NCBI GenBank assembly: GCA_963169745.1
Contig: CAUJCU010000010.1
Span: 195,487 to 259,486 of the forward strand
Reading direction: 5' to 3'
Source: Bacteroidota bacterium
GTDB lineage: Bacteria; Bacteroidota; Bacteroidia; UBA4408
DNA length: 64,000 nucleotides
Shown: piece after piece, positions 1-3,462 of the stretch
Position numbering within the stretch: the stretch's first letter is position 1
Layout: the number at the start of each line of letters is the position of its first letter
Program-made: the position numbers and the translations under genes
Notes under the pieces: generated by a model
The model's input: only the letters and a program-made list of their open reading frames with translations
What the model was told of the DNA's origin: nothing
Database searches by the model: none

Positions 1-1
1 T

Positions 2-157
2 GTAAATCGTATCAAACAAAAAGCAACACCGAAAAATGGTGGACTTGGTTTGAGCAATATGAAAATGCGTCTTGACCTTTTGCTGACAGGCAAGTATGAA
101 ATCAAAACGACTTGCAACGAACAAGAGTATTATTCAACTTTAATCATCCGCTTTTGA
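2..157 (+). CDS. LytS-type sensor histidine kinase, C-terminal end (partial)
   Basis: The frame is open from the window edge to a TGA at 155-157 and gives the last 51 residues of a protein. They contain the G2-box of a HATPase domain (GGLGLSNM, followed by KMRLDLL and a closing beta-strand pair), the usual C-terminus of LytS/YehU-type kinases that pair with LytTR regulators. The response regulator starts one base after this stop, so the two are almost certainly co-transcribed and probably form one two-component system. The sensor domain lies outside the window, so the stimulus cannot be guessed. Confidence 0.8.
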   Translation, partial: VNRIKQKATPKNGGLGLSNMKMRLDLLLTGKYEIKTTCNEQEYYSTLIIRF

Positions 158-158
158 A

Positions 159-917
159 ATGAGTAAACTGAAAGTTGCCATACTTGAAGACAGCAAACAA
201 CTTCTGAAAGATCTCAAACAAAATTTAGAGGAAACAGATTTAGTTGAAGTGGTGGCTTATGCTACCACTTCTGATGAGTTTTTGGAAAAGGTTGCAGCAG
301 CAAAACCTGAAGCACTTATGCTTGATATTGATTTAGGTGGCGACAGCATGAATGGTTTGGACATTGCTCACAAACTCAAACTTCCAGTTCTGTTTGTTAG
401 TGGCAAGACGAAAGATTTTTACCAAGGCATTGAGGACTTAAATATCAATTCAGAAATTTCAGTTGAACACATCAGCAAGCCGATTACATTAGAGAAACTG
501 AAAAAGATTTTGCCGAAGTTCATCAATGAAATAAGTGCAATGAGCAAAGCCAAGTTTGTTTATCTTGACTTTAGCGAGAGCAAGCGTAACAAAATTGCAA
601 TAGACAAAATTGTTTTTCTTGAAACTGAAACAGGCAAAAGCGGTTTGTCAAACAACAAGCGAATTTATTTTACCGATAGCAAGTCGGAAGTTCTTTGTGA
701 CTTTTCATTCACCAGAATGGAAGAAAAAGGTTTTAGCAAAAACCTTTTCATTCAAATTCACAAATCGTTTCGTGTGAACGCTGACAAGATTATTCGCTAC
801 AACAAAGGCACACACGAAGTAGAAGTAGAAATTTTCAAATCAACAGGTAAAACAGAAATTAAGAATCTTCCAGTTTCAGAAAACTTCCGAAGCGATGTTA
901 GCAGGTTCAAAAAATAA
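159..917 (+). CDS. LytTR-family response regulator
   Basis: A 252-residue two-component regulator. Residues 1-120 form a receiver domain: acidic pair E10/D11, phospho-acceptor candidate D56 in LMLDIDLGG, and the K107-P108 pair. Residues about 135-250 form a LytTR DNA-binding domain, with the typical segment IQIHKSFRVN followed by a basic stretch. LytTR proteins bind short direct repeats spaced by whole helical turns. Such repeats lie immediately downstream (922-976), between this gene and the viperin gene. The start abuts the stop of the upstream kinase, implying translational coupling. Family assignment is firm; control of the viperin operon is inference from position. Confidence 0.93.
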   Translation: MSKLKVAILEDSKQLLKDLKQNLEETDLVEVVAYATTSDEFLEKVAAAKPEALMLDIDLGGDSMNGLDIAHKLKLPVLFVSGKTKDFYQGIEDLNINSEISVEHISKPITLEKLKKILPKFINEISAMSKAKFVYLDFSESKRNKIAIDKIVFLETETGKSGLSNNKRIYFTDSKSEVLCDFSFTRMEEKGFSKNLFIQIHKSFRVNADKIIRYNKGTHEVEVEIFKSTGKTEIKNLPVSENFRSDVSRFKK

Positions 918-921
918 CCGC

Positions 922-976
922 TTTCATTACTCTTAAAATCCATTTCGTTACTCTCCCATCTTTTTCGTTTCCCTCT
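922..976 (+). promoter_or_regulatory. three phased direct repeats, probable LytTR operator
   Basis: TTTCATTACTCT (922-933) and TTTCGTTACTCT (943-954) differ at one base and are 21 bp apart. A weaker third copy, TTTCGTTTCCCT (963-974), follows 20 bp later. Two-turn spacing places all copies on one face of the helix, as expected for a LytTR dimer or oligomer. AACATTTG at 1002-1009, one base away from the Bacteroidota TAnnTTTG element, would put the third repeat near -45, an activator position for the gene starting at 1033. The repeats are seen directly; the binding protein is inferred from the adjacent gene. Confidence 0.55.
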
Positions 977-1032
977 ATTAGACAGGGCTAAAAAGTCGCT
1001 GAACATTTGTGTCGTTAAACTAAAAACACACA

Positions 1033-2418
1033 ATGATACCAGCAGTAAATTTTCATTTATGGGAGCCGTGCAACATGCGATGCAAATTTTGCTTCGCCAC
1101 TTTTCAAGATGTCAAGCACAGCATTTTACCCAAAGGACATCTACCAAAAGAACAAGCCCTTGAAGTTGTTTTACAACTTGCGGAAATTGGTTTTGAGAAA
1201 ATCACTTTTGCAGGAGGCGAACCAACTCTTTGCCCTTGGTTGCCTGACTTGATTGCAACAGCTAAGCAAGCAGGACTTACAACAATGATTGTAACCAACG
1301 GAAGCAAACTTACCGACAGTTTTTTGCAAGACAACAAACAGCATCTTGACTGGATTGCAATTAGCGTTGACAGTTTGAACATTGAAACAAATCTTGCAAC
1401 GGGCAGAGCTTTTTCAAGCAAAACAGCGTTAGCAACTGAACACTACTTTTCGCTTGCTGACAAAGTCAAACAACACGGTTACGGACTGAAAGTGAATACG
1501 GTTGTAAACCGTTACAATTTTTCAGAAAGCATGAGTGAGTTTATCAGACATGCAAAACCAGTTCGTTGGAAAGTGTTGCAGGCATTGCCAATCATAGGAC
1601 AAAATGATTTAAAGATAGAGGACTTAAAAATTTCGGCAGAACAGTTTCAGTTTTTTCTTGACACTCATGCAGACATAAGCGATTGCACAAGCATAGTTCC
1701 CGAGAGCAATGAGCAGATGCTAGGTTCGTATGCAATGGTTGACCCTGCGGGTAGGTTCTATGACAATGCAGAAGGAAAGCATAATTACAGCCGACCTATT
1801 TTAGAAATCGGTGCAAGGTTGGCGATACAGCAAGCGAATTATGACTTTGATAAGTTTTTAGACAGAGGCGGCATTTATCGTTGGAAAAGGCAAAAGCTAA
1901 TTCCCAAACGAATTACAATATCAGGTGAAGTTGCATCAGGTAAAAGCACAGTTGGAAAATTACTTGCTGAAAAATTGGATTACGAATTTGTTTCTATCGG
2001 AAACAGAACAAGAGAATTTGCCGCGAATAAAGGGTTGAGCATTGTTCAGTTTCAAAAGGAATGTTTAGGTAATCCTGAGACGGATAAGCAAATTGATTCC
2101 CTCTTTTCTAACGAGTGTAACTCAAAAGAGGAACTCATAATTGATTACCGACTAGGTTTCAATTTTATAAAAGATGCCTTTCATGTCTACTTGAAGGTTT
2201 CAGATGAAACAGCAATTGAAAGAGTGAAAAAAGCACATCGTCCAAACGAAACTCACTTGACCGTTGCTATACGTAACGAGACATTCAGAAATCAATTTCT
2301 AAATGCTTACAATCTTGATTACACAAACCCGAATAACTATGACCTTGTCATTGATGTTGATGATTTGGGTTCCGCAGAGCAGATTGTGGAATTTATCATG
2401 GCAAATATTTCTAACTAA
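1033..2418 (+). CDS. prokaryotic viperin fused to CMP-kinase-like domain
   Basis: A 461-residue two-domain protein. Residues 1-285 are a radical-SAM viperin: Fe-S cysteines C13, C17, C20 (CNMRCKFC), SAM-binding GGEPT at 61-65, and viperin-specific blocks NTVVNRYN (155-162), KPVRWKVLQ (175-183), VPESNEQM (222-229) and FLDRGGIYRW (275-284). Viperins convert CTP, or in bacteria also GTP or UTP, to ddh-nucleotides that stop viral polymerases. Residues 292-461 resemble archaeal-type CMP kinase: Walker A at 298-306 (GEVASGKST), a FVSIGN region, R/H-rich lid, and a YDLVIDVDDL end. The kinase half could supply the triphosphate substrate, echoing the animal viperin-CMPK2 gene pair. Start ATG lies 115 bp after the regulator. 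Both domains look complete. Confidence 0.93.
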   Translation: MIPAVNFHLWEPCNMRCKFCFATFQDVKHSILPKGHLPKEQALEVVLQLAEIGFEKITFAGGEPTLCPWLPDLIATAKQAGLTTMIVTNGSKLTDSFLQDNKQHLDWIAISVDSLNIETNLATGRAFSSKTALATEHYFSLADKVKQHGYGLKVNTVVNRYNFSESMSEFIRHAKPVRWKVLQALPIIGQNDLKIEDLKISAEQFQFFLDTHADISDCTSIVPESNEQMLGSYAMVDPAGRFYDNAEGKHNYSRPILEIGARLAIQQANYDFDKFLDRGGIYRWKRQKLIPKRITISGEVASGKSTVGKLLAEKLDYEFVSIGNRTREFAANKGLSIVQFQKECLGNPETDKQIDSLFSNECNSKEELIIDYRLGFNFIKDAFHVYLKVSDETAIERVKKAHRPNETHLTVAIRNETFRNQFLNAYNLDYTNPNNYDLVIDVDDLGSAEQIVEFIMANISN

Positions 2419-2430
2419 AAATTTGAAATC

Positions 2431-2730
2431 ATGCCGAAACAAATTCTTGAATTTTTTCTTTCAGAGCACTTCATGCTTAAATGCTGGGAAAGAACAGTTG
2501 AAAAACAAACTCTCTATAAGCTGCTTCCGTTTGTTGATGTGAGTCAAGCTGAAAAGAAAATTATAGTAATCACACCATCCTTCTATTCATCAAAAGGAAT
2601 TGTTGGGAGACCCAATCATTGTTTGGTTCTTGTGCTTAAACAGAAACTTATCAAAACAGGTTTTTGGTGCGACCATCCGAACTACTTGTTCAAGAAAGAA
2701 CAAGGAGCCGAGTTTCAATTGCTTTACTGA
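2431..2730 (+). CDS. small unknown protein downstream of viperin
   Basis: A 99-residue protein starting 12 bp after the viperin-kinase stop, so very likely in the same transcript. I do not recognise the family. It has no signal peptide or membrane segment. The sequence alternates hydrophobic beta-like stretches (KKIIVITPSF, HCLVLVLKQKL) with polar loops and ends in a short Trp/Cys/His-containing segment (GFWCDHPNYLF). This suggests a small globular cytoplasmic protein. Its position makes it a candidate accessory or regulatory part of the viperin system, but this is guilt by association only. Confidence 0.65.
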   Translation: MPKQILEFFLSEHFMLKCWERTVEKQTLYKLLPFVDVSQAEKKIIVITPSFYSSKGIVGRPNHCLVLVLKQKLIKTGFWCDHPNYLFKKEQGAEFQLLY

Positions 2731-2816
2731 CAATGGTTTTATTCAAAGTCCATTTAAAACTTTGAAGCGGAAGCCGAAACGCTGAAGTAGAGGCATAACT
2801 TAAATTAAATTTAATC

Positions 2817-2915
2817 ATGGCTAAAAAACCTATGATTCAATTGCCAAGACCCAGCACAAAACCTGGGAAACCGAGTGGACCTGCGGGAAACAATCCCCCA
2901 AAACCTAAAAAGTAA
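2817..2915 (+). CDS. 32-residue Pro/Lys-rich small protein
   Basis: ATG to TAA gives 32 residues, dominated by Pro, Lys, Gly and Ser (begins MAKKPMIQLPRP, ends NPPKPKK). It lies 86 bp after the 99-residue gene and stops 9 bp before the stem of a strong terminator, so it is the last gene of the viperin transcript. The composition implies a disordered, basic peptide. It could be a genuine small protein, an antitoxin-like or binding peptide, or a chance frame. The favourable features are its position flush against the terminator and its strongly biased composition. Confidence 0.45.
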   Translation: MAKKPMIQLPRPSTKPGKPSGPAGNNPPKPKK

Positions 2916-2921
2916 AGGTTA

Positions 2922-2956
2922 AAGGCAGGGTGGCGAAGCCACCCTGCTTATTTTTT
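2922..2956 (+). terminator. strong intrinsic terminator of the viperin operon
   Basis: A perfect 10-bp GC-rich stem (2925-2934 with 2938-2947) closes a three-base GAA loop and is followed by TTA and six T. It ends transcription after the 32-residue gene and marks the right edge of the higher-GC island. Confidence 0.88.
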
Positions 2957-3462
2957 GACGAGAGAATATAGAAAAGTCCACCCACAAAAATTACACTTTG
3001 TCTAATCCTAAAATAAGTTTATACAAAATAACGTGTAAAAATGAAAAAGTCAGTTCAAAAAAATCAGCCAATCCAACTATCTTTTATAGCAAAGACTTTA
3101 AATGAAAAATTGCTAAAAGACTACCTGAAAGTACTTGCTCTTTATTCTTAGTGGCTATTTTTAGTCTGTATCCGGCATTCTTTATCAAAAAAAGTTACTC
3201 TTTCTCTAAAATAACTCTCATTATAAGTGTTGTAAGCTTACCCGAAATTTGACCATTTAAAAATAGAAAAGCCTCGTTCGTGGTGATAAGCAAGCTATCA
3301 TTACTAAATTTGAACTGACTAATAAAGATTTGAAAGTTATAACTAATTGATATACAGCAGCTATTTTTTTGTGTGTGTGTAAGAATTCTTTTAAACTATG
3401 CAGCGAAGTGCTTTTTAACTCTTTAGTTCCTTGGATTGTTGCTGGACACTTTGTTTTGAGGT
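2957..3462. other. intergenic, no convincing gene
   Basis: AT-rich spacer between the viperin operon terminator and the convergent TonB receptor gene. It contains a 36-codon frame at 3041-3151 without recognisable similarity and a (GT)5 run at 3371-3380. Base composition drops from island-like to that of the rest of the window here. No RNA gene or repeat was seen. Confidence 0.5.

Follow-up and report, generated by a model that had tools for sequence, protein, structure and literature searches.

At the left end of a 64,000-nucleotide stretch of Bacteroidota DNA (contig CAUJCU010000010.1; hereafter the window, meaning this whole stretch) lies a compact locus in which a prokaryotic viperin gene follows the genes of a two-component system. 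The order is a histidine kinase (HK), a response regulator (RR) with a LytTR DNA-binding domain, 115 bp with repeats, a viperin-kinase fusion, a small protein (ORF99), a 32-aa peptide and a terminator hairpin (Table 1); every element listed in a preliminary description of this DNA, from the HK and the phased repeats to the two small genes and the hairpin, is present. The HK gene begins upstream of the window, the host contig (host genome 2.99 Mb) having been read 15 kb to the left beyond the window start. The flanks consist of rpsO and pnp on the left and a TonB-receptor gene on the right, all on the opposite strand. The comparisons below make it highly probable that this two-component system is dedicated to the viperin operon and activates its expression.

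The fusion is recognized by the NCBIfam model viperin_w_prok (NF038283; 320 bits, cut-off 180), its viperin part aligns over the whole length with mouse viperin (5vsl, E 1e-45), and the three cysteines of its CxxxCxxC motif (C13, C17 and C20) are all invariant. The C-terminal domain is cytidylate-kinase-like (Cytidylate_kin2, 60.4 bits) with the P-loop GEVASGKST. The PADLOC pVip-kinase profile matches at 657.8 bits and VakA matches residues 292-457, which places both domains in one protein; viperin residues 2-288 align to positions 181-464 of the pVip-kinase profile, so that the domain order is reversed with respect to the profile, whose own order (kinase N-terminal) is found in loci L023, L025, L027, L029 and L030. 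Viperin and kinase are neighbours in some loci and fused in others, in both domain orders. In the RR, both Pfam matches exceed their cut-offs, the phospho-acceptor is D56, residues D11, S81 and K107 are conserved, and the receiver residues are intact in ten aligned RRs.

Table 1. Features of the locus, in window coordinates
Feature	Position	Strand	Remarks
LytS-type HK gene, 237 aa	-556 to 157 (L002:14444-15157)	+	ORF; last 157 nt in window
RR, receiver + LytTR DNA-binding domain	159-917	+	Pfam Response_reg 36.9 bits, LytTR 24.0 bits
Predicted RR-binding sites, three tandem copies	921-933 CTTTCATTACTCT, 942-954 ATTTCGTTACTCT, 962-974 TTTTCGTTTCCCT	+	21 and 20 bp apart
Predicted Bacteroidota -7 box of the viperin promoter, AACATTTG	1002-1009	+	TTTG 64 nt from start of repeat 2
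Viperin-kinase fusion, 461 aa	1033-2418	+	Viperin radical-SAM aa 1-288; CMP-kinase-like aa 292-457
ORF99, small protein	2431-2730	+	No Pfam match; AF2 pLDDT 83; no solved fold match
Gene of 32-aa basic Pro/Gly-rich peptide	2817-2915	+	Conserved at RR operon ends: x-PS-x-TGxPSGxxRGNNPPKxxK
Intrinsic terminator hairpin	2923-2949	+	12-bp stem, 8 G-C pairs, T-rich tail, about -23 kcal/mol

Linkage of regulator, repeats and viperin

Viperin relatives were sought in one genome per species across 84,980 species; 130 were confirmed, the best 80 of these 130 loci were kept, and RR neighbours were found among them by tblastn and an RR profile. A homologous RR lies directly upstream of viperin, on the same strand and with a gap of 104-158 bp, in 24 of these best 80 loci; the contig labels of the colinear arrangement include Chitinophagales, Saprospiraceae, Flavobacteriales, Arcicella, Fluviicola, Flavobacterium, Chryseobacterium and Kaistella, and an independent class-wide RR search added one further colinear locus (G742). 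In eight more loci (Lacinutrix, Xanthomarina, Kordia, Aequorivita, Saprospiraceae, Labilibaculum and others), the HK-RR pair is transcribed away from viperin; in seven of these eight divergent loci a kinase precedes viperin, fused to it in five, as two ORFs in Kordia and in degenerate form in Aequorivita. The co-occurrence in relatives on which the preliminary description had made the link depend is thus present, the RR-viperin order being found again in 24 other genomes, spread over many Bacteroidota groups, and the divergent layout in eight. One HK-RR-viperin locus (L068) is carried by a contig labelled Saccharibacteria, from a genome of about 3.1 Mb that is probably mislabelled or misbinned.

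The association is specific within genomes as well as recurrent between them. Of 28 viperin genomes, 21 yield exactly one hit to the RR profile, a gene located beside viperin (E 1e-87 to 1e-120), with no second match in those 21 down to 1e-25; in the host genome, no other match to the RR appears at E<=0.001. Pairwise RR distances and pairwise viperin distances, compared over 5000 permutations, correlate with r = 0.80, a value that none of the permutations attained. An RR search of 400 genomes in the family of G313 gave no match, and the cassette is therefore rare there.

Known LytTR-binding sites consist of 9-11 nt repeats separated by 11-13 nt spacers (PMC4847170), a rule that the length and spacing of the present repeats satisfy. 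The first repeat pair is the sole match in the 2.99-Mb host genome at up to three mismatches, and the reversed control gave none. In nearly every colinear locus, two or three CTTTCATTACTC-like boxes, 21 bp apart, follow the RR stop codon. Box pairs at 20-22 bp spacing were scored with a leave-one-out matrix, with a shuffle p for each locus: the median score is 26 bits in loci with the RR versus -5.5 bits in loci without it (Mann-Whitney p = 7e-12), and 24 of 26 RR-containing loci reach p <= 0.04. The repeats also keep a fixed register to the promoter: counted from the start of the second box, the -7 box has its TTTG core at exactly 64 nt in 21 of 25 loci, and the next commonest offset is seen in 7 of 25. 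Since the distance from the -7 box to the start codon varies among loci, this register reflects promoter geometry and not mere sequence carry-over. No -33 element is seen in the window's viperin promoter. Chryseobacterium and Flavobacterium loci have an intrinsic terminator hairpin between RR and viperin, and viperin must there have its own promoter because the terminator separates the two genes. Divergent loci use a different box, (T)ATCCCAAA, present in three copies at 21+20 bp in six of seven (20+20 or 21+20, given the indel in L027); the divergent locus L012 has TTCGTTCCTT boxes at 21 bp. Taken together, co-occurrence, promoter-registered repeats and covarying trees give strong comparative support to the proposal, made in the preliminary description, that a sensor-kinase/LytTR pair is likely to control viperin.

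Signal, mechanism and alternatives

The HK matches the Pfam family His_kinase (PF06580, 43.7 bits) and comprises one N-terminal transmembrane (TM) helix, a coiled coil, an H-box (FQLQPHTLNN), an N-box (ENAFKHG) and a G-box (GLGLSNM). The label "LytS" is thus apt for the kinase domain but not for the classic five-TM sensor: Pfam and a TM scan revealed no sensor domain, no 5TM-5TMR_LYT match and only the single N-terminal helix. The same holds for all 18 full-length HKs examined from both layouts, each with one N-terminal hydrophobic helix, no second TM segment and no sensor domain (the HK of L010, incomplete at a contig end, is outside the 18). The external or envelope signal that had been proposed for the system finds no support in this comparison, nor in the loci whose RR has no adjacent HK. 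Kinases built in this way do not point to an external ligand; a signal from the membrane itself, the cytoplasm or a partner protein is more likely.

In the mechanism that we propose, a membrane-anchored, sensor-domain-less LytS-type kinase would phosphorylate the LytTR regulator, which, with strong support from the footprint of the repeats, is predicted to bind two or three direct repeats upstream of the -7-box promoter. Bound RR would then activate a single transcription unit comprising the viperin-CMP-kinase fusion, ORF99 and the small peptide. As judged from the respective protein families, the kinase domain may supply nucleoside triphosphate (NTP) precursors, most likely CTP, and viperin may convert the NTP to a chain-terminating 3'-deoxy-3',4'-didehydro-nucleotide that blocks phage RNA polymerase; keeping viperin off until a signal arrives would reduce toxicity to the host. 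We infer the signal, the antiphage activity and the direction of control, activation being favoured over repression because of the position of the sites and the missing -33 element in the window.

Several observations weigh against dedicated activation. Two loci with an adjacent RR, L026 and L068, show no significant repeat motif with the leave-one-out matrix; many RR-containing loci, those of Chryseobacterium, Flavobacterium and Arcicella included, have no adjacent HK; the best 80 of 130 viperin loci are the part of the family nearest the query and include Chryseobacterium loci that are not mutually independent, so that their counts are no census. Finally, this RR family and its repeats also occur without viperin in two genomes (G057 and G558), which means that the RR module can serve other genes. 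In G057 (L116:4710-5753), the RR and its repeats lie beside a type I restriction gene and would control the genes of a Pro-rich peptide and of a 55-aa DUF1737-like protein.

These two genomes, in which the RR precedes other downstream genes, are what one would expect if the LytTR pair were a hitchhiker, controlling some other target and carried along with viperin in accessory regions. We consider this very improbable, given that the host's only paired site is at the viperin promoter, that promoter geometry is fixed across loci, that viperin lies directly downstream of the RR in the same orientation, and that the arrangement is conserved over at least 24 loci plus a second layout. A different question is whether the RR, while binding the repeats, represses viperin or blocks read-through until the signal relieves the repression. 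In favour of such a role, the repeats overlap or abut the intrinsic terminator at the Chryseobacterium and Flavobacterium loci; however, the sites keep a fixed register some 60 bp ahead of the -7 box, which is the usual position of an activator, the window promoter shows no -33 element, and LytTR regulators are mostly activators. Repression thus appears unlikely, even though BrxR and similar regulators associated with defence act as repressors (PMC9122601).

The switch itself might be independent of defence, with nucleotide or metabolic stress being sensed and viperin making a signalling or housekeeping nucleotide. The nucleotide-metabolism partners (the CMP kinase, and an NT5C-type nucleotidase in seven loci) are in keeping with this, and an antiphage role at the present locus is deduced from family membership. 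Yet that membership is clear, antiviral activity is known for the viperin family and several viperin loci have restriction or other defence genes as neighbours, all of which makes a purely metabolic switch quite unlikely. Dedicated activation of a viperin defence operon is thus the explanation that we retain. The divergent, permuted and HK-less versions of the locus show that the link between regulator and viperin either arose repeatedly or was maintained through rearrangement.

A broader possibility, which we put forward tentatively, is that the RR (usually with a sensorless HK), the 21-bp repeats, the -7 promoter and the Pro-rich peptide form a portable LytTR cassette acting as a general infection or membrane-stress switch in front of different effectors; these would be viperin-kinase, viperin with a TauD oxygenase and a Cys/Trp-rich protein, or the peptide alone. 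If true, such a cassette would be a bacterial counterpart of the interferon-type induction of antiviral genes. HK-RR(-viperin) operons that encode a TauD/TfdA-type dioxygenase are found at L118:3968-5274, L020:5802-7100 and L117:3003-4313; all three also encode a protein with the C-terminus CWHDCSxRCWHxC, and that of L117 is without viperin.

Accessory genes and acquisition

ORF99 and the 32-aa peptide are real genes, as both are conserved in L016 (76% and 85% identity, respectively). Among the fetched loci, the ORF99 family occurs only beside viperins, in both layouts. The best PDB match to its AF2 model has an E-value of 0.2, which is not significant, and a weak similarity to YafQ was not accepted. 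The peptide family closes many RR operons, including two without viperin; a viperin-specific role for the Pro-rich peptide was rejected, because 5 of 346 Bacteroidota genomes also carry it in unrelated contexts. In L126, L127 and L129 (G289, G079 and G237), a peptide MKPNPNWPSRTGNPSGPGRGNNPPSKP... occupies a fixed chromosomal site unrelated to viperin. Other small peptides accompany viperins: a short, basic and disordered one (...NSKVHGNRGKQLNPNQ...) lies between HK and (kinase-)viperin in the divergent loci L023, L025, L027, L033 and L034, and related small basic peptides are encoded beside viperins at L065:9633-9791 and L061:11441-11710, in metagenome-assembled genomes labelled Latescibacteria and Poribacteria. 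The NT5C-type nucleotidase follows viperin in L010 and L023 (assigned by Pfam) and in L012, L025, L026, L029 and L030 (assigned by sequence likeness).

The higher GC content ascribed to the locus amounts to a modest rise (37.5% versus 34.0% for the whole window), while the GC content at third codon positions (GC3) of HK, RR and fusion is clearly higher, at 0.35-0.38 versus 0.277 +/- 0.035 for the window ORFs. The locus is absent from three congeners, and both this absence and the high GC3 support acquisition. That it was transferred as a unit, as had been suggested, finds no counterpart in a demonstrable boundary: in the empty-site comparison with the three congeners, pnp-rpsO is conserved and the DNA beyond differs in each. 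A 73-nt direct repeat that brackets the locus (L002:14101-14173 and window 3300-3372; 84% identity, 4.2 kb apart) was rejected as a pair of attachment sites, as it belongs to a dispersed family that numbers at least eight copies in the host genome. Phage records returned nothing beyond generic radical SAM proteins and viral contigs no viperin; plasmid matches were to stand-alone viperins only, with neither fusion nor two-component system in the three neighbourhoods examined. A member of another genus in this family retains only a broken copy of the viperin-kinase gene (L005; G399:C9:37317-38015), which lies beside a LexA/UmuD-like gene.

Comparison with known systems

What turns bacterial defence genes on is for the most part an open question, and the dedicated regulators described so far tend to be one-component repressors. 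In the present case, an antiviral enzyme that has a human counterpart is apparently governed by a phosphorelay of its own, which has just one target site; this makes the question of what an infected cell senses directly testable by a short promoter reporter. Viperin and its association with kinases are known, the neighbours reported for prokaryotic viperins (pVips) being kinases, hicA and relE (PMC10865869). In the open-access literature, no report linking a two-component system or LytTR to viperin was found, and viperin, response regulator and phage were met together only in the context of WYL regulators; the novelty thus lies in a known effector under a regulatory layer unreported in the open-access literature searched. 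Candidate partners of viperin also emerge from the comparison, namely an unknown small protein, an NT5C-type nucleotidase, a TauD-type oxygenase and small basic peptides.

Like the pVips (PADLOC pVip and pVip-kinase; NF038283), the present protein combines a CxxxCxxC viperin domain that matches solved viperins with a nucleotide-kinase partner; unlike the PADLOC pVip-kinase profile, it has viperin N-terminal and kinase C-terminal (both orders exist), and unlike pVips with their known neighbours, its expression appears tied to a two-component system. With LytS/LytTR systems such as YpdA/YpdB and BtsS/BtsR it shares a His_kinase-type HK, an RR made of receiver and LytTR domains, and 9-11 nt direct repeats about 21 bp apart; those systems differ from it in that here there is no membrane sensor domain and a single adjoining target. 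LytS/LytTR targets are carbon, cell-wall, bacteriocin and virulence genes, whereas the target here is a defence gene. By comparison with BrxR/CapW, the WYL-domain regulators, the locus likewise has a dedicated local transcription factor for a defence locus; BrxR/CapW, however, are one-component, ligand-binding repressors acting on inverted repeats, whereas here phosphorelay-controlled LytTR sites are predicted. The analysis suggests that viperin defence in many Bacteroidota is switched by a signal, as interferon switches animal viperin. By analogy with the vertebrate interferon-induced pair RSAD2 (viperin) and CMPK2, a viperin would be combined with a CMP-kinase-like enzyme under inducible expression; RSAD2/CMPK2 are under JAK-STAT control, unlike the present operon, and any likeness would be convergent.

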